From: an uncultured Ruminococcus sp.
GTDB taxonomy: Bacteria; Bacillota; Clostridia; Oscillospirales; Ruminococcaceae
Assembly: GCA_947345935.1 (NCBI GenBank)
Contig: CAMZZN010000001.1
Location: 133,086-197,085 of the forward strand
Direction: 5' to 3'
DNA length: 64,000 nucleotides
In this document: positions 41,148 through 52,992 of the stretch, piece by piece
Layout: each line of letters starts with the position of its first letter
How positions within the stretch are numbered: position 1 is the stretch's first letter
Position numbers and translations under genes: made by a program
Notes under the pieces: model-generated
Seen by the model: only the letters and a program-made list of their open reading frames with translations
Told to the model about the DNA's origin: nothing
The model's database searches: none

Positions 41148-42049
41148 TATGTACCTCTCTTTCCGTTCAGAAGTTCGAGCAGATATGTATAAAGTTCTCC
41201 GCTCCCGGCAATATGGCGGTCCGGCGCTGAGATTTGTAATTCTGCCGGAATGTCGGTTTCGGAATACGCCATGGTTCTTCCGTTGCCGTCGATAAGGAGC
41301 ATCACGCCGTCTTTTGCAGGATATCTTCGCCTGCACAGAGATTCCGCAGTTTCACGGCTTGTTTCTGCCGTATTGCCTACGGTATATACAGATACGTCTT
41401 TTCCGTACCCGGCTGCTGCCTTTTCAAGTTCGGATATCTGCTGAGAATTGAAAAAACCTGCCTGATCGAAAATATGAGAGGAGCATTCCTCACCAAGTCT
41501 TAGCATTCGTATGGCGGCGGAACTGTAATCTTTTCCGACTATATCACGTGTAGCCTGATAAAAAGCGTTTTTTTCAGCTTCCGGGTCGATATTTATTCCG
41601 CCTGCTTTATAGAGTATATCCTCGTTGGTATCGTTGTTGATAAGAAAGAGAAGTCCACGGCTGCTGTCGCTTCCGAAAATCTGATTATAGCACCGTGATG
41701 CATAGTCATACGGCTCGGCGCCGTCAAGCTTGTTTACAGTGACAACGGCAGCGTTTATCATGCGGCTTGAATTGAGTTCGGATATCACTTGGTTACAGGC
41801 TGCTGCTGCCTCGCTGTCCATTATGCCGGCGTAGTCTTTTATGTATTGACCCGACACAGATACAGGATTTTCAGGAACGACGCTTTCAGATGTTATATTT
41901 TCTACCGTGTCAGGAGTCTGGCTGTTTCCGGTCTGCGTTTCCGAAACACCCGAAGCATTGCCGTTGTCTGCCTTTTCGGTTTTATGTGCACATCCGCAGA
42001 ATATCGCTGCGGATACTATAAAAATGGCTGCTGAAAAAATTTTTTTCAA
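41147..42049 (-). CDS. TPM-domain lipoprotein
   Basis: 300-aa exported protein. Signal peptide with lipobox IFCGC (Cys near residue 19), then a Thr/Ser/Glu linker. The first TPM domain contains YIKDYAGIMDSEAAAACNQVI, NAAVVTV and GLLFLINNDTNEDI; a second, degenerate half includes DVSVYTVGNTAE and DGVMLLIDGNGR. TPM domains act as extracytoplasmic phosphatase-like or membrane-complex repair modules. Start chosen as TTG 42049 because AGGAGG lies about 10 nt upstream (42060-42065); a longer TTG start at 42112 has no site. Coupled to the alarmone synthetase gene. Confidence 0.78.
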   Translation of the reverse strand: MKKIFSAAIFIVSAAIFCGCAHKTEKADNGNASGVSETQTGNSQTPDTVENITSESVVPENPVSVSGQYIKDYAGIMDSEAAAACNQVISELNSSRMINAAVVTVNKLDGAEPYDYASRCYNQIFGSDSSRGLLFLINNDTNEDILYKAGGINIDPEAEKNAFYQATRDIVGKDYSSAAIRMLRLGEECSSHIFDQAGFFNSQQISELEKAAAGYGKDVSVYTVGNTAETSRETAESLCRRRYPAKDGVMLLIDGNGRTMAYSETDIPAELQISAPDRHIAGSGELYTYLLELLNGKRGT

Positions 42050-42224
42050 AAAAATCAGTCCTCCTACTTGTAATCTTATTAATATTTTAGTATAATTTAA
42101 TAGAAAAATCAAGTGGAATTATGTATTTCACAAAACTTTCATTTAGGCACACCGTACAAAGATCGTGCGGCAGATGCTCAGTTGGATTTTTGGTACGGCG
42201 CTGCCTTAATAAAGAGGAGATATT

Positions 42225-43040
42225 ATGGATTATAAAATTACAGATGCAGGAATTATTGTTTCAGAGGCTGATCTTGACCTGGACGAAACTCTTGACTGTG
42301 GTCAGGCTTTTCGGTGGAGAAAGATTACTTCCGATTATGAATGTACATATCAGGGCAGATTTCTCAATGATGATCTGGTTGTTTCACAGGTGAAAAAAGG
42401 AGAATTTCTTTTTCATGATATTTCAGAGACAGATTTTCTGAGCAGGTGGAAGGACTATTTTGATTTTGATACCAACTATTCCGAGTTGAAAAAAAGCTTT
42501 TCCGAGGATGAAACGCTGTCACAGGCGTGCAGTTTTGCAGGAGGTATACGGCTTTTGCGACAGGATAGCTGGGAGTGCCTTATTTCCTTTATTATTTCCC
42601 AGAACAACAACATCCCCCGCATAAAAGGGATAATTGACAGGCTATGCGGTATGTACGGAGGACGTTTTCCTGAAGCCGGAGAACTTTCGGAAGAAACACC
42701 TGAAAGCCTCGAACCGCTAAGAAGCGGATTCAGAGCAAAGTATATCTGCGATGCCGCTGTAAAAACAGCTTCCGGAGTGACAGATCTTGCCGGAATTGCC
42801 GCTATGCCTATTGAGGATGCAAGAACAGAACTGAAAAAGATCTCAGGGGTAGGTCCTAAAGTTGCCGAATGCGTGCTTCTTTTCGGTATGCACCGTACGG
42901 ATGCTTTCCCTGTTGACGTATGGATAAAACGTGTGCTGTCAGAGTATTATCCGAACGGTTTTCCGGAATATCTCAAAGAAAACGCCGGCATTGCGCAGCA
43001 ATATCTTTTTCATTATATACGCAATTTGCCGGAAAAATGA
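42225..43040 (+). CDS. ogg: 8-oxoguanine DNA glycosylase (OGG/AlkA superfamily)
   Basis: 271-aa base-excision repair enzyme. N-terminal TBP-like domain with DLDETLDCGQAFRW, then SFIISQNNNIPRIKGI and the helix-hairpin-helix SGVGPKVAECVLLFG, which carries the catalytic Lys. The catalytic Asp is in DAFPVDVWIKR. This combination marks bifunctional OGG-type glycosylase/AP lyases rather than AlkA. AGAGGAGAT precedes the ATG. A 175-bp leader region (42050-42224) shows nothing else certain. Confidence 0.92.
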   Translation: MDYKITDAGIIVSEADLDLDETLDCGQAFRWRKITSDYECTYQGRFLNDDLVVSQVKKGEFLFHDISETDFLSRWKDYFDFDTNYSELKKSFSEDETLSQACSFAGGIRLLRQDSWECLISFIISQNNNIPRIKGIIDRLCGMYGGRFPEAGELSEETPESLEPLRSGFRAKYICDAAVKTASGVTDLAGIAAMPIEDARTELKKISGVGPKVAECVLLFGMHRTDAFPVDVWIKRVLSEYYPNGFPEYLKENAGIAQQYLFHYIRNLPEK

Positions 43041-43099
43041 ATAATCTCCCAGAAACTTCCAATGATAAAATCAGAAGAAGTTACTTCCAGGAGGTTTTT

Positions 43100-43357
43100 A
43101 TGATAAAAGGAGTTACAAAAAAGATAATAGAGATAAACAATCCCGACAGCATTTACTTTGAAAAAGCAGTGTTCTATCTGCGCCCTAATGTAAGGGAGCT
43201 TCCTCCGGAGATTTCTCGATCGGAGGCTCATCGGTATATTGCAAAGCTTGGATTGGAATACACAAGTCAGCGGAAAAAAAGAAAATGGGGAAAGATTTTT
43301 TTCCTCGCAGCTGCGGCTGTGTCGGCAGCCGCTTTGATTTTTATTTTTCTGCATTAA
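43100..43357 (+). CDS. 85-aa protein with C-terminal membrane helix, unknown
   Basis: Small tail-anchored protein. The soluble N-terminal 60 residues contain IIEINNPDSIYFEKAVFYL and a basic KRKKR-type segment before a single hydrophobic helix (IFFLAAAAVSAAALIFIFL) at the end. Start ATG 43100 after CAGGAGG; the longer in-frame ORF upstream overlaps ogg and is not used. Lies between ogg and the AraC gene in the same orientation. No function assigned. Confidence 0.7.
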   Translation: MIKGVTKKIIEINNPDSIYFEKAVFYLRPNVRELPPEISRSEAHRYIAKLGLEYTSQRKKRKWGKIFFLAAAAVSAAALIFIFLH

Positions 43358-43367
43358 GGAGTTAAAA

Positions 43368-44237
43368 ATGGAAGCAATAAACGCAACAGGAAATATATCG
43401 AAACGGATAATCTGCACTCCCAGTCCTTCGGCGAAAAACGGATTTTTTTACGTTCAGGAAACCGGATGCCTTGCAGCGGGAGATACGGCGGCAGCGTGCA
43501 GGAAGGATCTGGAGTCTTTTCTGTTCGCTGCCGTTATAAAGGGAAGGGGAGAACTATGTTTTGGCAGGGAGACTTATACGGTATCAAGCGGAGAATGCTT
43601 TTTTATTGACTGCCGGCTGCCGCATTATTATAAAAGTTCCGAAAATGAACCGTGGGAGCTGATTTGGGTTTATTTTAATGGGGCGACATCACGACAGTAC
43701 TATGATTTTTTTCTGTCGCAATCAAAGAACGTGTTCCGGATTTCTGCATTTGAACGGGCAGTATCGGCGATAACAAGGATAATCGAGATCAATGAAGAAA
43801 AAAATCCTAACGGCGAGATACTATCCTCCAAATATATTATGGATCTTATGACGATTGCTCTTATGGTCAATGCCGATGGTGAAAGGTATGACTCGGCGTT
43901 GAAAAATAAGCTGATGTCGGTACATAATTATATAGACGATCATTTCAGCGAAGAAATGTCGCTGGAGATGCTGTCCGCTAAGTTCTATATCAGTAAATTT
44001 TACCTTACACGGGAATATAAGAGAATATACGGAATGACGATATTTCAGCATATTATTACAGCAAGAATAAATTACGGAAAGAAACTGCTGAGATTTTCGG
44101 ATAAATCCATCGAAGATATTGCTCATCTTTGCGGATTTAACGATCAGAGCTATTTTGCAAGGCAGTTCAAAAAGTCTGAAAATATCACCTGTTTTGCATA
44201 CAGGAAAATGTGGATGGATAAAAAAGAGAACCCTTAA
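43368..44237 (+). CDS. AraC-family transcriptional regulator
   Basis: 289-aa regulator. The N-terminal cupin-like sensor domain (residues about 20-150) contains YTVSSGECFFIDCRLPHYYKS. The C-terminal double helix-turn-helix (about 185-285) has MSLEMLSAKFYISKFYLTREYKRIYGMTIFQHI and IEDIAHLCGFNDQSYFARQFKKSENITCFAYRK. Such regulators often respond to sugars; the target is unknown, and no sugar gene is adjacent. Its stop lies in the loop of the terminator it shares with rnpB. Confidence 0.9.
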   Translation: MEAINATGNISKRIICTPSPSAKNGFFYVQETGCLAAGDTAAACRKDLESFLFAAVIKGRGELCFGRETYTVSSGECFFIDCRLPHYYKSSENEPWELIWVYFNGATSRQYYDFFLSQSKNVFRISAFERAVSAITRIIEINEEKNPNGEILSSKYIMDLMTIALMVNADGERYDSALKNKLMSVHNYIDDHFSEEMSLEMLSAKFYISKFYLTREYKRIYGMTIFQHIITARINYGKKLLRFSDKSIEDIAHLCGFNDQSYFARQFKKSENITCFAYRKMWMDKKENP

Positions 44238-44250
44238 GGGTTCTCTTTTT
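44221..44250. terminator. Bidirectional terminator of the AraC gene and rnpB
   Basis: A perfect 30-bp palindrome (13-bp arms and loop TTAA) with A5 and T5 ends; the AraC stop codon is at the loop (44235-44237). Confidence 0.88.
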
Positions 44251-44256
44251 TAAAAT

Positions 44257-44595
44257 GACCAGACCGATAAGCCGGGTTCTGTCGAGTGCGGTAATTTATC
44301 TACTCCTGCCGTCGCCGGCAGGCTCAAGCCGTCATTACTTTATATCCGCCGGACAGACGTTAAGATATAAAGCACCAATAGACGTTGCATCGGATAGGGT
44401 TTACATAGCAGTACAGTCTCCTGTACCCTGGTGAGCTCTTACCTCGCCTTTCCACCATCACCTCACGAGGAGGCAGTATATTTCTGTTGCACTTGCCCTA
44501 AGGTCGCCCTCGGCTGCCGTTAGCAGTTATCCTGTCCTGTGATGCCCGGACTTTCCTCATAAACTAAAACGTTTCCGCTACCGCATAGTCTGCTC
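44257..44595 (-). ncRNA. rnpB: RNase P RNA (class A)
   Basis: Minus-strand RNA of about 339 nt. Conserved segments: GAGGAAAGTCCGGGC near the 5' end (complement about 44545-44559), CTAAGGGCAAGTGCAACAG-like P11-CRIV region, and GAACCCGGCTTAT near the 3' end (44266-44279). The 5' CAGAC and 3' GTCTG ends pair as P1. It is the catalytic RNA that processes tRNA 5' ends. A consensus promoter lies immediately upstream, and a palindromic terminator downstream. Confidence 0.96.
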
Positions 44596-44603
44596 ACAAT
44601 GTT

Positions 44604-44632
44604 ATTATAGCATTTTAAAATAATTTTGTCAA
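44604..44632 (-). promoter_or_regulatory. Consensus promoter of rnpB
   Basis: Minus strand TTGACA (44627-44632), 17 bp, TATAAT (44604-44609); both perfect, 9 bp before the RNA 5' end. Confidence 0.92.
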
Positions 44633-44640
44633 GAATAATA

Positions 44641-44669
44641 TTGACAAATCATATTGTTTGTGCTATAAT
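44641..44669 (+). promoter_or_regulatory. Consensus promoter of the polyamine operon
   Basis: TTGACA (44641-44646), 17 bp, TATAAT (44664-44669) with TGC upstream. Back to back with the rnpB promoter, 8 bp between the two -35 boxes. Confidence 0.9.
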
Positions 44670-44675
44670 AATACA

Positions 44676-44949
44676 AACTGCAAAAGAAGCGATTGTTTCA
44701 GAGCATGATTTTTGACCACCCCGAACGGGGTCAATGCCATACGGACAGCTGGTCAAATGCCGACTGCCGGATTTCCGGCTGGCAACTTCTGTTGCCTTAT
44801 TGAATTTGTTTTATGAGTTTTTCTCAGCTTGTGAAAGGTCAATAAGAGTAGTAAAAGGTATCTTTGCTCAAGGCGGTTTTCCTGCCCTATGCTTCTCATC
44901 TCCTTGCTTTTGTCACTCACGTACAGGCTGAAAAAGTCTGTACTTTTTT
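44676..44949 (+). ncRNA. Structured attenuator leader of the polyamine operon (candidate new riboswitch)
   Basis: About 290 nt separate the promoter from speD. Visible pairings are 44711-44717 with 44751-44757 stacked on 44718-44722/44727-44731 with a 19-nt one-sided bulge; TGCC/GGCA and GCCGG/CCGGC around 44758-44784; an alternative GGCAAC/GTTGCC (44781-44796); and 44796-44803 with 44839-44846. The end is an intrinsic terminator, 44921-44929 with 44935-44943 plus six T. A stretch at 44825-44832 can pair with 44923-44930 and would destroy the terminator, so attenuation is likely. No match to a known riboswitch or T-box was recognised. Short ORFs in the leader (from 44704 and 44734) leave a leader-peptide mechanism possible. 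Confidence 0.6.
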
Positions 44950-44968
44950 ATTTCTGAGGTGTATTTTT

Positions 44969-45751
44969 ATGGAAAATAAGCTTAAGCTTTACGGCTTTAA
45001 TAATCTCACCAAATCCCTTAGTTTCAACATTTATGATGTATGCTATGCCCGTACTCCAAAGGCACAGCTTGATTATATCGCTTACGTTGACGAAGTGTAT
45101 AATTCTGAAAGGATCACCGACATCATGACTCATCTTACCGAAATGATAGGAGCGCAGGTGCTAAGTATTTCCCGGCAGGATTACGATCCTCAGGGAGCCT
45201 CAGCAACATTTCTTATAGCCGACGATACCATGATCCCAGCCGGAGGATCTGAAACAGTCGCTCATCTCGACAAAAGTCATGTTACTGTGCATACCTATCC
45301 GGAGTATCATCCGGATACGAGCATTGCCACTTTCCGGGTGGATATTGACGTTGCCACCTGCGGAAAAATAACTCCTCTTACGGCTCTTGATTATCTTATA
45401 GGCAGCTTTGATTCCGACATAATCACAATGGATTACCGTGTCCGTGGATTTACACGGAATCTCAGCGGCAAAAAACTGTTTATAGACCACGATATAACTT
45501 CGATCCAGAATTACATAAACGAAGCTACGCTTGACAAATACGACGCTGTTGACATAAACGTTTATCAGGCGAATATGTTTCATACAAAAATGCTTATAAA
45601 GGAAATAGAACTTCAGAATTATCTGTTCAACACAGATGTCCGGGAATTGTCCCCCAGAAGCCGCCTTGATATTACAAATGCGCTTCGCCGGGAAATGATC
45701 GAAATTTTCAGCGGAAGGAACGTGTTCGGAAATGGCTCTTTATCAGACTGA
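44969..45751 (+). CDS. speD: S-adenosylmethionine decarboxylase proenzyme (E. coli type)
   Basis: 260-aa pyruvoyl enzyme making decarboxylated SAM, the aminopropyl donor. The self-cleavage site is [13 protein letters not shown], with Ser103 becoming pyruvoyl. The length places it in the long class 1A (E. coli-like), not the 120-aa Gram-positive class. Downstream motifs [13 protein letters not shown] and [10 protein letters not shown] agree. I use ATG 44969 after GAGGTG, directly after the terminator. It overlaps the next gene by 20 bp. Confidence 0.93.
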
Positions 45752-47192
45752 CGCCCCTATTTACGAGGCTTTGCGGAAATTAAGACGGATGAGGGTAGTT
45801 CCCTTTGATGTTCCCGGTCATAAACGTGGACGAGGCAACATGGAATTAACGGAATTTCTCGGCGAGGACTGCATGAACGTGGATGTAAATTCCATGAAGC
45901 CACTGGACAACCTCTGTCATCCTGTCTCAGTTATACGGGATGCGGAAACGCTTGCCGCACAGGCATTTCATGCCGCCAGTGCATTTTTTATGGTAGGCGG
46001 AACGACTTCCGCCGTTCAAAGCATGATAATGTACGCCTGTAAAAGCGGCGACAAGATAATTATGCCCCGAAACGTTCATCGGAGCGCAATAAATGCTCTG
46101 ATTCTTACGGGAGCAGTACCGGTCTACGTAAATCCTGACGTTAACGCTCAGCTCGGTATTGCTCTTGGAATGTCGCTCGCCCAGGTAGAACAGGCAATAC
46201 TTGAAAATCCGGACGCCAAGGCGATAATGGTCAATAATCCGACATATTACGGCATCTGTTCTGATCTCCGGCGCATTACCAAGCTTGCTCATGAGCACAA
46301 TATGCTGGTGCTTGTTGATGAGGCTCACGGTACTCATTTCTATTTCGGAGAAAATTTTCCCGTTTCTGCCATGGACGCCGGAGCTGATATCACCTCGGTA
46401 AGTATGCACAAATCGGGCGGAAGTCTCACTCAAAGCTCATTCCTTATTATGGGTAAATCGGTAAATTCCGATTATATGCGCCAGATCATCAATCTGACCC
46501 AGACCACCAGCGCCTCGTATCTGCTTCTTTCAAGCCTTGATATATCGAGAAAAAGACTGGCTCTTATGGGACGTGATATTTTTGCTGAAACCATTGAAAT
46601 GGCGGAATATGCAAGATCTGAGATCAACAGTATAGGCGGATACTACGCTTATTCAAAGGAGCTTATCAACGGCGACAGTATCTTTGACTTTGACGTTTCA
46701 AAGCTGAGCGTTTACACACTTCCTGTCGGTCTTGCGGGCATCGAGGTCTACGACTATCTCCGTGACGAATACGATATACAGATAGAATTCGGTGATATCG
46801 GCAATATCCTTGCGTATATCTCCGTAGGCGACAGGAAACGTGACATAGAACGTCTGATAAGCGCTCTTTCGGAGATAAAGCGTCGGTTCGGCAGATCTGG
46901 CGCCGATATGCTGACGCAGGAATACATCTCGCCCATCGTTGCTGAAACTCCGAGAACGGCTTTTTACGCCGATAAGGTCTCGCTGCCCCTAAATGAAGCT
47001 TCTGGTCATGTGTGTACGGAATTTGTCATGTGCTATCCGCCGGGAATCCCAATTCTTGCTCCCGGTGAGCTGGTGACAAAGGAAATAATTGAATATATAA
47101 ACTATGCACGTGAAAAAGGATGTCAGCTTACGGGAACTGAGGATATCAATATTGAACGTCTGAATGTTCTGAAACAGCATAATAAGGAGTGA
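45732..47192 (+). CDS. speA: Orn/Lys/Arg decarboxylase family enzyme, probably arginine decarboxylase
   Basis: 486-aa fold-type I PLP enzyme of the Bacillus SpeA kind. N-terminal [11 protein letters not shown] and [11 protein letters not shown], then [39 protein letters not shown] (PLP-binding Asp and His) and the Schiff-base Lys in [16 protein letters not shown]. The C-terminal domain ends with [12 protein letters not shown]. Specificity for arginine is inferred from agmatinase (speB) in the same operon; lysine or ornithine cannot be excluded. The start lies inside speD. Confidence 0.88.
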
Positions 47193-47196
47193 TTTG

Positions 47197-48048
47197 ATGG
47201 AATTATGGTTTACGGAGCGTCATACTCCCAACGTAAAATTTTCAATAAAGGTCGATCGCCAGCTTTACAGCGGAAACAGCGAATTTCAGCGGATAGATGT
47301 GTTTGATTCAAAGGAATTCGGAAGATTTCTCACCCTTGACGGCTACATGATGCTTACGGAAAAGGATGAATTCATCTATCACGAAATGATAACCCATGTT
47401 CCTATGGCGGTGCATCCCGACCCGAAAAATATCCTTGTTATCGGCGCAGGAGACGGCGGAGTTATCCGTGAGCTTACACGTTATCCTGGCGTTGAATCAA
47501 TCGATCTGGTGGAAATTGACGAGTTAGTGGTAGAGGTATGCCGGAAATATCTGCCGTCTACCGCCTGCCGCCTTGATGATAAAAGGGTTAATATTTATTA
47601 TGAGGACGGCGTAAAATTCATACGCAGATGCGAAAATAAATATGATATCATAATTGTTGATTCAACCGATCCTTTCGGTCCGGGCGAGGGTCTTTTTACC
47701 AAGGAATTTTATGGAAGCTGCTCAAAGGCGCTGCGTGAGAACGGCGTCATGGTGAATCAGCACGAAAGCCCATTCTATTCCGAAGATGCTGCCGCCATGC
47801 AGAGATCGCATAAGCGCATTGTTGATAGTTTTCCCATAAGCCGTGTATATCAGGCTCATATTCCGACCTATCCGTCCGGACACTGGCTTTTTGGATTTGC
47901 TTCAAAAAAATGTCACCCTGTCCATGATCTCAATAGTGCTAAATGGAATATGCTCGGTCTGAAAACCGGTTATTATAATACGAAACTTCATGCCGGAGCT
48001 TTCTCACTGCCGAACTACGTTGAGGAAATGCTCAGGGACGTTGAATGA
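47197..48048 (+). CDS. speE: Spermidine synthase (aminopropyltransferase)
   Basis: 283-aa enzyme transferring aminopropyl from decarboxylated SAM to putrescine. The N-terminal beta domain begins LWFTERHTPNVKFSIKV. GGYMMLTEKDEFIYHEM-like segment, VIGAGDGGVIREL (SAM fold glycine loop), VEIDELVVEVCRKYLP and DIIIVDSTDPFGPGEGLF, with the catalytic Asp. ATG 47197 has AAGGAG at 7 nt; the TTG one codon earlier is not needed. Gap to upstream gene 4 bp. Confidence 0.95.
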   Translation: MELWFTERHTPNVKFSIKVDRQLYSGNSEFQRIDVFDSKEFGRFLTLDGYMMLTEKDEFIYHEMITHVPMAVHPDPKNILVIGAGDGGVIRELTRYPGVESIDLVEIDELVVEVCRKYLPSTACRLDDKRVNIYYEDGVKFIRRCENKYDIIIVDSTDPFGPGEGLFTKEFYGSCSKALRENGVMVNQHESPFYSEDAAAMQRSHKRIVDSFPISRVYQAHIPTYPSGHWLFGFASKKCHPVHDLNSAKWNMLGLKTGYYNTKLHAGAFSLPNYVEEMLRDVE

Positions 48049-48065: not shown

Positions 48066-48917
48066 ATGCTTTCTAAAAATATATCAACCTTTATCGCCTG
48101 TGAAAGCGATTACCATGAAGCCAGGATAGTTCTTTTCGGCGCCGGATTCGACAGCACAACGAGTTTCCGTCCTGGAGCACGTTTTGGTCCTTCCGCCATA
48201 AGAAACGAGAGCTTCGGAATAGAGACATACAGCCCGTATCAGGACAAGGACATGACCGATTACCGCTTTTTCGACAGCGGCGACATCGACGTAACTTTTG
48301 GCGGTGTAAGGCGTACCATAGCCGATATTGCCATGAGAACCGATATGATCCTCACTGACGGAAAGCTGCCGTTCATGATCGGCGGAGAGCATCTCGTAAC
48401 GCTTGGCTCCGTTATGGCTCTAAAGGAAAAAAACGACGATCTTTATATCATCCATTTTGACGCTCATGCCGATCTTCGGGACGACTACCTTGGTCAGCAG
48501 CTTTCTCACGCTTGTGTGCTCAGACGCTGCCATGAACTTGTGGGCGACGGACATATTTTCCAGTTCGGAATCAGGAGCGGAGACCGTGAAGAATTCCGTT
48601 TTGCTGAAGAACACACAACAATGCACAGGTTCAGCTTTGACGGACTTGAGGAAACGGTAGAGAAGCTCAAGGGAAAAAACGTCTATTTTACCCTTGATCT
48701 CGACGTGCTTGACCCTTCAATTTTTCCGGGAACAGGCACTCCGGAGGCGGGAGGCGTTACATTCGATGAACTGAGAAAAGCTGTTACTCTTGTTTGTGGC
48801 AATCTGAATATCAAAGGCTGCGACGTATGCGAACTAAGTCCAGTTTACGATCAGAGCGGGGTTTCTACCGCAGCTGCCTGTAAGATAGTCCGTGAAATGC
48901 TTCTGGCTCTTTCATAA
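48066..48917 (+). CDS. speB: Agmatinase (ureohydrolase family)
   Basis: 283-aa dinuclear Mn enzyme hydrolysing agmatine to putrescine and urea. Metal motifs GGEHLVTLGS, HFDAHADLRDDYLG, and LDLDVLDPSIFPGTGTPEAGG. FDSTTSFRPGARFGP near the N-terminus fits agmatinase more than arginase. The product feeds both SpeE and the carboxynorspermidine route. AAAGGAGAAA precedes the ATG. Confidence 0.93.
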   Translation: MLSKNISTFIACESDYHEARIVLFGAGFDSTTSFRPGARFGPSAIRNESFGIETYSPYQDKDMTDYRFFDSGDIDVTFGGVRRTIADIAMRTDMILTDGKLPFMIGGEHLVTLGSVMALKEKNDDLYIIHFDAHADLRDDYLGQQLSHACVLRRCHELVGDGHIFQFGIRSGDREEFRFAEEHTTMHRFSFDGLEETVEKLKGKNVYFTLDLDVLDPSIFPGTGTPEAGGVTFDELRKAVTLVCGNLNIKGCDVCELSPVYDQSGVSTAAACKIVREMLLALS

Positions 48918-48930
48918 AAAGGAGAATGCA

Positions 48931-49476
48931 ATGCAGATATATAGAAAAAGCATTCCGCTTAATACTCCAGGTGGAAGAAAAACTGCAAAGCTGCTGCTCA
49001 CTATAATTCTTTTGGGGATATCGGCAGTATTTATTGCTGTAGGGGCAATAATATTTAAGGTGAACAAATCAAATCAGGATAAATGTACAGAGAAAGTTAC
49101 TGCCACGGTAGTTGATCTTTTGGAGCAAACTAATACTTCCAGTCACAAAGGCAGACGAAGAACAAGTATTTCCTATCGTCCGGTATTTGAATATACCTAC
49201 AATGATGTAAAATACATTACGGAAAGCAATATTTCATCAAATCCGCCTGAATACGAGATTGGTGAAACTGTAGATCTGATGATCGCCCCTGATAAACCAA
49301 GAAGGATTTACGATCCGGGAAGCAATCTGCTTCGGCTGATGGGATTTATATTCGGCGGCGTTGGTATATTAATGATGATAATATACATTATCATCATGAT
49401 CGTTATGGGCAAACTTAAGGATAAAGAAAATCCGGAAAATACAGAGATTGACTATTACGAAGAAAATCAATATTAA
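48931..49476 (+). CDS. DUF3592 membrane protein
   Basis: 181-aa protein with two hydrophobic segments (residues about 20-45 and 135-165) flanking an extracytoplasmic beta-strand domain containing KVTATVVDLLEQT and SYRPVFEYTYNDVKY, the DUF3592 pattern. C-terminal acidic tail. Start ATG 48931 after AAAAGGAG. It sits within the polyamine operon, 14 bp after speB and 18 bp before the next gene. No enzymatic role known; possible link to polyamine transport is speculative. Confidence 0.72.
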   Translation: MQIYRKSIPLNTPGGRKTAKLLLTIILLGISAVFIAVGAIIFKVNKSNQDKCTEKVTATVVDLLEQTNTSSHKGRRRTSISYRPVFEYTYNDVKYITESNISSNPPEYEIGETVDLMIAPDKPRRIYDPGSNLLRLMGFIFGGVGILMMIIYIIIMIVMGKLKDKENPENTEIDYYEENQY

Positions 49477-49494: not shown

Positions 49495-50697
49495 ATGGGA
49501 AAATGTATGATAATCGGCTGCGGCGGCGTAGCTTCTGTTGCAATTCATAAATGCTGTCAGAACAGCGAGGTTTTTGAATCGATAATGATCGCAAGCCGTA
49601 CAAAATCCAAATGCGACGCTCTGAAGGAGAAACTTCAGCCCACAACTAAAACCGTTATTGAGACAGCTCAGGTCAACGCCGACAACGTTGACGAACTTAT
49701 AGTTCTGATCGAAAGCTACAAACCTGACGTAGTACTTAATCTTGCGCTTCCATATCAGGATCTGACAATTATGGATGCTTGTCTCGCCACCGGAACTCAC
49801 TACGTCGATACTGCAAACTACGAACCCCTCGATACCGCCAAATTCGAGTATAAATGGCAGTGGGCTTACCATGAGCGTTTTGAAAAAGCAGGTATCACTG
49901 CGCTTCTTGGAAGCGGCTTTGATCCCGGTGTTACGGGCGTTTTCTCAGCTTATGCAATGAAACATCATTTTGATGAAATCAATTATATTGATATTCTGGA
50001 CTGCAACGGCGGCGATCACGGCTATCCATTTGCAACCAACTTCAACCCTGAGATCAATATTCGTGAAGTTTCCGCAAAGGGAAGCTATATTGAAAACGGA
50101 AAATGGGTTGAAACCGAACCAATGGAAATAAAACGTGTATATAACTTCAAAGGCGTAGGCGAAAAGGATATGTATCTTCTTCACCATGAGGAGCTTGAAT
50201 CACTTGCGCTTAACATCAAAGGCGTCAAGAGGATACGCTTCTTTATGACATTTGGTCAGAGCTACCTTACACATCTGAAATGCCTTGAAAACGTAGGAAT
50301 GACGTCAATTGAACCTATTATGTACGAGGGACGGGAAATTGTTCCGCTCCAGTTCCTGAAAGCGGTGCTCCCTGATCCTGCAAGTCTGGGTCCCAGAACA
50401 GTCGGAAAAACCAATATCGGCTGTATTTTTCACGGAAAAAAAGATGGAAAGGATAAATCCTACTACCTCTATAATATCTGCGATCATCAGGAATGCTACA
50501 AAGAGGTAGGCTCTCAGGCGATTTCCTACACCACGGGGGTTCCGGCAATGATCGGTGCAATGATGATAATGACCGGTAAATGGAACAAAGCCGGAGTTTA
50601 CAATATTGAGGAATTTGACCCTGACCCGTTCATGGAGGCTCTCAACAAATGGGGACTGCCATGGGAGGAAGATTTTAACCCTGTTCCTGTGGAATAA
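49495..50697 (+). CDS. Carboxynorspermidine/carboxyspermidine synthase (saccharopine dehydrogenase family)
   Basis: 400-aa NADPH-dependent enzyme condensing aspartate semialdehyde with putrescine or diaminopropane. N-terminal Rossmann GCGGVASVAIHKC, then LNLALPYQD, THYVDTANYEP, LGSGFDPGVTGVFSAY and DCNGGDHGYPFATNFNPEINIRE, which match CANSDH rather than plain saccharopine dehydrogenase. Together with NspC downstream it forms a SAM-independent spermidine route. AAAAGGAG precedes the ATG. Confidence 0.92.
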   Translation: MGKCMIIGCGGVASVAIHKCCQNSEVFESIMIASRTKSKCDALKEKLQPTTKTVIETAQVNADNVDELIVLIESYKPDVVLNLALPYQDLTIMDACLATGTHYVDTANYEPLDTAKFEYKWQWAYHERFEKAGITALLGSGFDPGVTGVFSAYAMKHHFDEINYIDILDCNGGDHGYPFATNFNPEINIREVSAKGSYIENGKWVETEPMEIKRVYNFKGVGEKDMYLLHHEELESLALNIKGVKRIRFFMTFGQSYLTHLKCLENVGMTSIEPIMYEGREIVPLQFLKAVLPDPASLGPRTVGKTNIGCIFHGKKDGKDKSYYLYNICDHQECYKEVGSQAISYTTGVPAMIGAMMIMTGKWNKAGVYNIEEFDPDPFMEALNKWGLPWEEDFNPVPVE

Positions 50698-50701
50698 TAA
50701 A

Positions 50702-51865
50702 ATGAACTTCACTAAATTGATAAACAAGTTGTTAGGCTCTGGAAATGAATCGCAATCTGAACCTGTCTGCTGCTCAGTATTCATTAACGGCAATGACGAG
50801 CTTTTCAACGCAGCGTTCAACACCCTGAATTCCCTTAATACCGGTCGGATAAAGGATTTTGCAGCACGATGCAGGATTCTTACAACAGGAAGCATACAGG
50901 AGATACGGAATCGTTTTTATCACCTTCGTCATGCCAATTACGGATATTGCTTAGGTACGGAATACACAAAACCGGATTTCGGGCTTCTGAAAAAATACGG
51001 CGGCAATGATTTCCCTGCCGTTCTTGCGGCTGGAATGATGCATCAAAGCGGTTATTGCCGTGAAGATTGTACCGTTCTTATATCCGATTATCCGGAATAT
51101 ATCTGTCTGACACTGTACGGCTTCAATGACTGGGTACCCCAGGTGCGCAGTGCGTCGGAAAAAAGCTTTTTCAATATGCTTCCGAAAGCTGATCTAATTA
51201 ACGTAATCAGAGCATACAGCGAAATCGACCGGATAATCAGAAGCAATCGTTTCAGTAAGAAACAGTTTGACAAAGCACGCAGTCAGCTGGCAGAAAGAAT
51301 AAGCCGGGAAAGCAGAACGGATGTTATTTCCGCAATAAAAACTGTCATTCAGTCCAATGACCGCTGTAATCTGTATTTTCCGCTGCTCCGGGACAGGTTG
51401 ATATCGCCGGAAACAGCAGAATCAATTATCAAAACCGAAGAAGCGGCGATAGCGGACAGACTTGCTCCGCTTGTGATCGATAAATATGATCTGCCCGTTG
51501 AGCATCTTATTGAAATGACGGAAAGCCGATTTCCGAGAACAAGATATGTCGCCGCAAGACGGCTCTATGAAAAATCCGGATTGTGGCAGAATTCCGATAG
51601 GCTTCTGCTTGATAAAAGCAATTCTGTGATAAAGCTTCTGTGCCGAAACACCGGTAGTCTCTGGAACGCAATGCCATATTTTATACGTCTCTACTATGCC
51701 CCGGAGGAGTATATATGTTTCCCGGTACGCATGGCGATATCTAAAAGATCCTATATATACCTTTCAACAAGGGAGCACGCTGAAGAGATCAGAAGAGCAA
51801 TAGAAGAAAATCCTCTTCCTGAAAATCTGACGGCAGAAATTTACAGAGAGATCGGAGTGATTTGA
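50702..51865 (+). CDS. Unrecognised alpha-helical protein inside the polyamine operon
   Basis: 387-aa soluble protein, not recognised. It is almost all helical, with repeated patterns such as WVPQVRSASEKSFFNML and RFPRTRYVAARRLYEKSG that recall HEAT-like repeats, and a short C-terminal region. No signal peptide, membrane segment or catalytic motif seen. ATG 50702 lies 4 bp after the synthase stop without a clear ribosome binding site, so translation may be coupled. Its stop overlaps the nspC start (TGATG). Position between two enzymes of one pathway suggests a related role. Confidence 0.65.
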   Translation: MNFTKLINKLLGSGNESQSEPVCCSVFINGNDELFNAAFNTLNSLNTGRIKDFAARCRILTTGSIQEIRNRFYHLRHANYGYCLGTEYTKPDFGLLKKYGGNDFPAVLAAGMMHQSGYCREDCTVLISDYPEYICLTLYGFNDWVPQVRSASEKSFFNMLPKADLINVIRAYSEIDRIIRSNRFSKKQFDKARSQLAERISRESRTDVISAIKTVIQSNDRCNLYFPLLRDRLISPETAESIIKTEEAAIADRLAPLVIDKYDLPVEHLIEMTESRFPRTRYVAARRLYEKSGLWQNSDRLLLDKSNSVIKLLCRNTGSLWNAMPYFIRLYYAPEEYICFPVRMAISKRSYIYLSTREHAEEIRRAIEENPLPENLTAEIYREIGVI

Positions 51866-52992
51866 TGAAGGACATTTCCGTCCTCAGAACACCTTGCTAC
51901 GTCATTGACGAAGCACAGCTCATACACAACCTGGAAATACTTCACGGAATTGAAGAACGCACCGGAGCAAAGATACTTCTTGCCCAGAAAGCATTTTCAT
52001 GTTATCATCTATATCCAACAATAGGAAGGTATATTTCAGGAACAGCTTGCAGCGGTCTTTTTGAGGCACGTCTCGGATATGATGAAATGAGAAGTGAGAA
52101 TCATGTATTTTCCGCCGCCTACCGTGAAGAAGAAATCGACGAAATAATCGGATACTGTGGTCATATTATCTTCAATTCCTTTACACAGCTTGGCAGGTAT
52201 CGCAAACGTGTTCTGGCTGCCGGGAAAAAAATCGGGCTGCGCATAAATCCGGAATGCTCCACCCAGAATGGACATGAGATTTATGACCCGTGCTCTCCAA
52301 AATCACGTCTTGGCATCACGGACAAGAATTTCCGGCGCAGTGATATTTACGGTGTGACAGGGCTTCACTTTCATACGCTGTGTGAGCAGAATTCGGATGA
52401 TCTTGAAAAAACTCTGAACGCCGTTGAGGAAAAATTTGGCGATATACTGCCAAAAATGGAATGGATTAATTTCGGGGGAGGTCATCACATCACCAGGGAA
52501 GATTATGACATTCCACGACTGGAACGATGCATAAAGAGGATGCAGGAAAAATACGGGCTGGAGGTATATCTTGAACCAGGAGAAGCCGTTGCCCTGAATG
52601 CCGGATTCCTTGTGACGGAAGTCCTTGATATTACCGAAAACGACATTCCTATTGCAATTCTGGACACTTCGGCAGCCTGTCATATGCCTGACGTTCTTGA
52701 AATGCCGTACAGACCGCCGCTTTTAAACTCCGGAATGCCGTCTGAGAAGGCATACACTTACCGTCTTGGTTCGCAGACCTGTCTTGCCGGAGATGTTATC
52801 GGCGAATATTCATTTGACGCTTCGCTGAATATCGGCGACAAACTTGTTTTCGGGGATATGGCGATCTATTCTATGGTGAAAAACAACACTTTCAACGGAA
52901 TGCCGCTGCCGGATATCGTTCTGAAAAAAACAGACGGAACACTTGAAATGCTGAAACAATTCGGGTACAGAGACTTCCGTGAAAGGCTCTGA
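51865..52992 (+). CDS. nspC: Carboxynorspermidine decarboxylase
   Basis: 375-aa fold-type III PLP decarboxylase. The PLP Lys is in ILLAQKAFSCYHLYP, the TACSGLFEARLG segment and INFGGGHHIT glycine loop bind the cofactor, and the active-site Cys region is near the C-terminus (TCLAGDV). It removes CO2 from carboxyspermidine or carboxynorspermidine made by the synthase two genes upstream. ATG 51865 has GGAG at 7 nt. Last gene of the operon. Confidence 0.93.
   Translation: MKDISVLRTPCYVIDEAQLIHNLEILHGIEERTGAKILLAQKAFSCYHLYPTIGRYISGTACSGLFEARLGYDEMRSENHVFSAAYREEEIDEIIGYCGHIIFNSFTQLGRYRKRVLAAGKKIGLRINPECSTQNGHEIYDPCSPKSRLGITDKNFRRSDIYGVTGLHFHTLCEQNSDDLEKTLNAVEEKFGDILPKMEWINFGGGHHITREDYDIPRLERCIKRMQEKYGLEVYLEPGEAVALNAGFLVTEVLDITENDIPIAILDTSAACHMPDVLEMPYRPPLLNSGMPSEKAYTYRLGSQTCLAGDVIGEYSFDASLNIGDKLVFGDMAIYSMVKNNTFNGMPLPDIVLKKTDGTLEMLKQFGYRDFRERL

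Follow-up and report, generated by a model that had tools for sequence, protein, structure and literature searches.

Among cellular cations, polyamines are some of the most abundant. In the available text of one report, natural spermidine riboswitches are said to have been sought many times, mostly in work that stayed unpublished, and a single case is reported, a rare variant of the SAM-I riboswitch; the same text mentions, and doubts, the claim of a polyamine riboswitch in the spe2 mRNA of fission yeast (PMC10853860). In Borrelia burgdorferi, excess spermidine leads to more truncated pot transcripts, as described in the accessible part of a second paper (PMC10319736). The SAM-I variant is the one polyamine riboswitch class that full-text searches of the open PubMed Central literature listed. 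Judged by titles and the visible parts of abstracts, none of the papers listed presents the RNA discussed here as a riboswitch, and a prior description elsewhere is possible; the main text of a 2024 survey of 50 genomes (PMC11109978) contains none of the terms polyamine, spermidine, ldcC, potA, speA and decarboxylase. The present analysis concerns the leader of a speD operon and its relatives, which very probably constitute a genuine, widespread, structured, cis-acting attenuator of polyamine genes.

The speD leader and the genes that follow it

The window is the whole 64,000-nt stretch of DNA that was analysed, and all coordinates are positions within it. The leader lies on the plus strand behind a promoter at 44641-44669, whose hexamers, TTGACA (44641-44646) and TATAAT (44664-44669), agree with the consensus at 12 of 12 positions; the spacer is 17 nt long and a TG is present. 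The leader itself (44676-44968) folds at −88.5 kcal/mol against a mean of −73.1 kcal/mol for dinucleotide shuffles (z −3.1), of which 1 in 200 is equally good. An intrinsic terminator at 44921-44949, made up of a 9-pair hairpin (44921-44943) and a U run, precedes the ribosome-site sequence of speD (GAGGTG, 44956-44961; start codon 44969). A preliminary description of this locus had claimed a perfect promoter and a long, structured leader of about 290 nt with a terminator before speD, and these points hold.

The gene speD (44969-45751) encodes an adenosylmethionine decarboxylase of the E. coli type (TIGR03331). On the same strand follow a speA-like Orn/Lys/Arg decarboxylase gene (45732-47192; matches below cut-offs only, with no NCBIfam equivalog reached), speE for spermidine synthase (47194-48048; TIGR00417), speB for agmatinase (48066-48917; TIGR01230), a carboxynorspermidine synthase-like gene, casdh (49495-50697; NF043000 at 403 bits, below its cut-off of 800), and nspC for carboxynorspermidine decarboxylase (51862-52992; TIGR01047). 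Two further ORFs within the operon, at 48892-49476 and 50606-51865, have no convincing NCBIfam match.

On the minus strand, the RNase P class A RNA (44252-44596; 255.9 bits) is transcribed divergently from the leader, from a promoter (44604-44632) that likewise agrees with the consensus at 12 of 12 positions. Beyond rnpB lies the gene for an AraC-family regulator (43368-44237). The inverted repeat with A/T flanks between the two (44219-44252), which has sub-threshold matches to microRNA families on both strands, looks like a bidirectional terminator.

The preliminary description had tied the leader of this one operon to polyamine metabolism, and the tie extends to the relatives. Of 188 loci gathered, 11 with less than 600 nt of flank were left out of the gene count; in all 177 others the first downstream match is a polyamine gene, namely speD (63), casdh (43), speA (39) or potA (32). 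Eleven of the 177 repeat the core of another locus, and with distinct cores counted once the result is 166 of 166 (speD 61, casdh 38, speA 37, potA 30). Core-to-gene distances have medians of 314 to 385 nt and a maximum of 643 nt over the 177 loci. The query set comprised ten proteins, those of the polyamine genes plus one unassigned ORF, and a small unrelated intervening gene would therefore go unseen. At one potA locus (L137) a small ORF, PII-like by eye, is found between the RNA and potA, at oriented positions 196-595 after the core. At another (L055) PotA passes the NCBIfam cut-offs, and the best matches of PotB, PotC and PotD are spermidine/putrescine models, below cut-offs.

The conserved domain

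The preliminary description had recognised no known riboswitch class and had named an Rfam family match as evidence against itself. It overlooked RF02440 (SpF59_sRNA, ldcC RNA; Rfam 15), which matches at 44713-44763 with 57.1 bits (E 1.2e-8), above the cut-off of 37.2 bits, over the full 54 model positions. RF02440 is, however, a 54-nt sRNA entry and not a riboswitch one; no other Rfam family exceeds its cut-off in the leader. The SAM families gave no match in window positions 42000-48000 up to E 10, nor in eight loci (the window copy and seven relatives) up to E 1, and no other Rfam riboswitch is among the matches of either set. The entry spans about a quarter of the conserved domain, and conservation continues for about 140 nt past the 54-nt module.

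The domain comprises about 214 model positions. P1 closes the whole; within it are arranged, in order, P2, P2b and P3 (with an ACGGAC loop and a UGCCGA tail), P4, and P5, which encloses P6-P9. A full-length model of 214 positions, R1, was built from 48 sequences, one of which is the window. R1 matches the window at 44698-44881 on the plus strand with 116.9 bits, the sole match in its genome at E ≤0.001.

In the window, the 5′ strand of P1 is GAGCA (44701-44705), for which alignment A1 (see below) gives UGCUC (44865-44869) as partner. The free fold of the window leader (−88.1 kcal/mol), in which P2, P2b, P4, P5, P7 and the terminator form together, instead pairs 44701-44705 with 44890-44894; forcing the P1 of the model yields −82.5 kcal/mol, a cost of 5.6 kcal/mol. 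The RF02440 module holds P2 (44713-44717/44751-44755), P2b (44718-44722/44727-44731) and P3, each with double changes among relatives, as well as the loop and tail. The one-sided bulge of 19 nt noted earlier corresponds to the nucleotides that separate the inner hairpin (44718-44731) from 44751. A pseudoknot is proposed between CGG(A)C (44742-44746) and GCCG (44759-44762); its letters are invariant in A1, show no covariation and were also demanded by the selection pattern of A1. P4, the hairpin GGCAAC/GUUGCC (44781-44796), shows double changes at all six pairs in relatives. The preliminary description had set this hairpin against a TGCC/GGCA pairing: the hairpin is there, and the competing pairing, though possible, is not needed, because members without that TGCC, such as L228 and L235, keep GGCAAC/GUUGCC.

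P5 (UUAUUGA, 44797-44803, with UCAAUAA, 44839-44845) and P7 (AUGAGUU, 44813-44819, with AGCUUGU, 44826-44832, as in A1) are both present in the free fold of the window. P5 is nearly invariant, with 98.3% of A1 cells paired and some letters demanded by the selection pattern. The window is without the P6, P8 and P9 found in most A1 rows, and it has what reads as a stem insert of its own at 44870-44905 (AAGG, 44870-44873, with CCUU, 44902-44905). Past P1, at a distance of about 5 nt in most A1 rows, GACUCU can pair with AAGAGU to form P10; in the window the proposed strands are GAGU (44846-44849) and ACUC (44915-44918), the latter placed by hand from the sequence. In P10, 97.8% of A1 cells are paired, with zero double changes, and GAG and CTCT were demanded by the selection pattern. 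The strand AAGAGUAGUAAAAG is nearly constant in A1, and its AAGAG belonged to that pattern.

From an initial alignment of 133 sequences that was badly gapped, RNAalifold recovered almost no structure (−6.0 kcal/mol). The structure was worked out manually, using the conserved blocks of a single relative (L062), and then tested on A1, which consists of the window and 68 non-redundant members of the 113 loci (of 186) that pass a regular expression. Letters in this expression are invariant because of selection, and this affects P2, P5, P7, P10 and the pseudoknot. Over the 69 sequences, 93.0% of cells are paired (shuffled mean 87.6%), 23 pairs show double changes (shuffled mean 15.7) and covariation is 0.200 (shuffled mean 0.102; slid versions at most 0.078). 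In all five structure measures none of 500 shuffles is as good, and every slid register falls below the true one. Most of the signal comes from P2b, P4, P6, P9 and the closing pair of P2, which is UA in 29 sequences, GC in 17, CG in 16, UG in 4 and not paired in 3. In two genomes with identical cores (L192, L193) P3 is flipped from GGC/GCC to GCC/GGC, and P4 is altered with, by eye, its pairing kept.

Shuffles and swaps leave relatedness in; 34 disjoint nearest pairs of sequences were chosen to lessen its effect. In these pairs compensatory changes number 44 (slid partners 0-15), one-sided changes 70 (slid 38-49) and broken ones 118 (slid 127-151). The broken changes fall mainly in P1 (37), P9 (24) and P2b (19), where the high count is probably due in part to misalignment. 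Among the 34 pairs no compensatory change occurs in P5, P7, P8, P10 or the pseudoknot; covariation says little for these elements, including the RF02440 pseudoknot, because they hardly vary. Homologous leaders thus covary, a check that the preliminary description had proposed, and they do so beyond shuffles, slid controls and the slid partners of nearest pairs.

P1 was also examined by exchanging strands between loci (132 of 186 loci). Its own arms pair at −14.75 kcal/mol and swapped arms at −11.80 kcal/mol; the own partner is better in 115 of 132 loci, and swapped strands are at least as good in 1218 of 5280 cases. For the arms flanking the domain (119 loci) the values are −16.9 kcal/mol for own and −13.2 kcal/mol for swapped, with the own arm better in 94 of 119 loci (p 3e-14) and swaps equally good in 1224 of 4760 cases. 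A long-range helix encloses the domain in many loci (L170 and L085 are examples; about 14 bp in L170) and lies outside R1.

Occurrence and modular make-up

Relatives were supplied in the phylum, family and class searches by matches to the RF02440 model. It matches 18 of 398 genomes of the phylum, 49 of 197 genomes of the family (48 above cut-off) and 31 of 398 genomes in the class of another genome, G335, with one match per genome among the matches listed; Lactococcus lactis is the only one of 14 named control genomes to carry it. A pattern scan of GTDB genomes found at least 118 loci. Five of these (L050, L097, L123, L130, L132) were excluded, since nothing more of the module is present around them. 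The 113 kept comprise 109 from Bacillota, one from Spirochaetota, one from Synergistota and two without a label; as many genomes are metagenome bins, the non-Bacillota loci could be misbinned. Also gathered were 30 of the 49 family matches to RF02440, 8 of the 50 genus matches to R1, and 14 further stretches, mostly low-scoring, from R1-matching genomes of the genus.

R1 matches 54 of 59 sources, 58 of which lie outside its training set, some as near relatives of it; the misses are exactly the five chance matches set aside above. In the phylum R1 finds 25 of 398 genomes, that is all 18 of RF02440 and 7 more, the extra loci all being upstream of speD or speA. In the genus of the window it finds 48 of 60 genomes. 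One of these, G981, has two R1 matches on separate contigs. What looked like a tandem pair in another, G1028, is a single RNA whose P6 carries an insert of 175 nt; an insert of this length in P6 is recorded for the same-genus member L238 (172-532).

Twenty further R1-matched loci were picked as low-scoring or missed by RF02440, and Rfam reports RF02440 (E ≤0.01) in two of them. In L218 and L223 a diverged ACGGACA stretch is still present. In several members from the genus, L228, L235 and L236 among them, the module is absent, with other sequence in its place, and P1, P4, P5, P7 and the constant strand are kept. That piece is therefore peripheral, and the core is likely to lie elsewhere than the Rfam entry suggests. 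It is somewhat more likely than not that the RNA forms a riboswitch class that is new, large, modular and without relation to SAM-I, and that it is the main natural polyamine sensor RNA of Bacillota. Its core would be the constant strand GUCAAUAAGAGUAGUAAAAG...GCUAUAUAGACUCU together with P1, P5 and P7; RF02440, the only part on record, would be a peripheral module that can be exchanged and is missing from some members.

The candidate switch, its likely ligand and the closest known systems

Downstream of the domain, a looser finder detects terminator-like hairpins in 128 of 132 loci, compared with 5 of 132 mononucleotide shuffles; with a strict finder, 65 of 131 loci were usable for pairing tests. 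In these, the 5′ arm of the terminator pairs with the P9/P7 3′ strand of its own locus at −11.7 kcal/mol, with swapped strands at −9.7 kcal/mol and, when the arms are shuffled, at −6.7 kcal/mol. The own strand beats the mean swap in 55 of 65 loci (p 9e-10), and 764 of 2600 single swaps are equally good or better. The P1-3′ and P4 regions show no own-locus preference for the terminator arm in this comparison (p 0.97 and 0.9).

The window copy of this layout had been pointed out in the preliminary description: 44825-44832, which overlaps the 3′ strand of P7, can pair with 44923-44930, and the relatives support its view of a leader under terminator control, with an alternative pairing that they conserve. 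The window duplex has −13.8 kcal/mol against a mean of −7.9 kcal/mol with 65 other arms, seven of which do as well. With the antiterminator forced, the window fold reaches −78.6 kcal/mol, compared with the free fold given above; the terminated state is thus preferred at equilibrium even in the absence of ligand, so that read-through would depend on the kinetics of co-transcriptional folding. The complementarity of the strands is locus-specific, and the switching itself is predicted from sequence.

As the antiterminator strand competes with both P7 and the terminator, the layout is that of an OFF switch, and the genes downstream, which are linked in function, share a conserved, covarying domain in their 5′ leaders, as expected of a riboswitch. 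The leader probably acts as an OFF riboswitch that responds to a polyamine by terminating transcription; spermidine is the likely ligand. At low spermidine, the P9/P7 3′ strand (44825-44832) would pair with the 5′ arm of the terminator (44923-44930), and with this antiterminator formed RNA polymerase would read on into speD. Plentiful spermidine would bind the folded domain and lock the 44825-44832 strand into P7, freeing the terminator and stopping transcription. A polyamine ligand is suggested because the two spermidine routes and PotABCD import have a product in common, either spermidine itself or a close relative of it. The choice of spermidine over another polyamine would follow from gene content and strand competition, as would the OFF direction, and binding is presumed to be direct rather than through a protein go-between.

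The same genes also handle putrescine, agmatine, cadaverine, carboxyspermidine, SAM and decarboxylated SAM, and a riboswitch for one of these is unlikely but deserves some weight. speD and speE use SAM derivatives, and the preliminary description had offered SAM or decarboxylated SAM as ligands. Both are now disfavoured because the same RNA precedes potABCD importers and the 43 casdh-first operons, which SAM-type ligands fail to explain; nor, as noted, is any SAM family among the Rfam matches of window positions 42000-48000 up to E 10. Arginine and lysine, like SAM, are poor candidates because they do not fit the importers. Putrescine is a weaker candidate than spermidine, since it is consumed by speD and speE, and an OFF switch responding to it would shut the genes that do so. 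About as unlikely, if anything slightly more so, is a protein-dependent attenuator, in which polyamine levels or growth state are read by an RNA-binding protein, and this protein either stabilises the domain or opens it. Leaders that bind proteins can have such an appearance, and both the size of the domain and its nearly constant strand would suit such a protein, but multi-helix domains with a strand that competes against a terminator are typical of riboswitches.

SP0916 is presumably the first gene of the pneumococcal polyamine operon. In the available text of PMC3395615, F59 (also SN20 or srn235) is an 82-nt pneumococcal RNA located between SP0915 and SP0916, with a lung Tn-seq fitness of 0.05 under its other names. 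Together with the Rfam type of RF02440, 'Gene; sRNA', a Streptococcus sRNA entry, this would suit a trans-acting small RNA whose terminated leader base-pairs elsewhere. Such a role is very unlikely: a terminated leader would appear as a short RNA anyway, insertions there could act via the downstream operon, and members without the RF02440 module exist. The genomic context, with polyamine genes following in 177 of 177 testable loci, and the antiterminator layout point to action in cis rather than to an independent sRNA. A leader peptide, with termination controlled by ribosome stalling, was the main alternative of the preliminary description and is more improbable still. The window does contain a 65-codon ORF (ATG at 44734), and start-like codons stand in constant columns (TTG in column 194, for example, in 68 of 69 rows), but these columns are constant because of RNA structure. 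The commonest ORF length is 9 codons, which could also suit a leader peptide; yet a Shine-Dalgarno-like site with a start inside the domain occurs in only 3 of 69 sequences, and the lengths of the P2-P5 stretch are even modulo 3 (26, 22, 21). On these two grounds the leader peptide was rejected.

If the leader is a polyamine riboswitch, the Rfam sRNA entry RF02440 would have to be reclassified as one piece of a cis-regulatory element, and with R1 annotators could detect members that escape Rfam. The RNA is common, large and linked to polyamines at every testable locus, so that RNA polyamine sensing becomes directly testable in Clostridia, Bacillus and Paenibacillus.

The candidate class is new, whereas the kind of system is known. 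According to the available text of PMC10853860, the SAM-I-variant spermidine riboswitch is likewise an OFF switch with competing terminator and antiterminator, and its RNAs adjoin speE, speB, speD and ldcC genes. The terminator/antiterminator platform on polyamine genes found here is a shared way of working rather than membership of SAM-I: the leader has other helices and other conserved letters, as compared through the Rfam SAM families. The SAM-I variant is called rare in that text (PMC10853860), whereas the present RNA was detected in 48 of 60 genomes at the genus level and in 25 of 398 at the phylum level. The Borrelia burgdorferi potB transcript has a spermidine-dependent premature 3′ end, which falls within the coding region, with no conserved RNA domain described in the accessible part of the paper (PMC10319736); in the present case, termination would occur in a leader built around such a domain.
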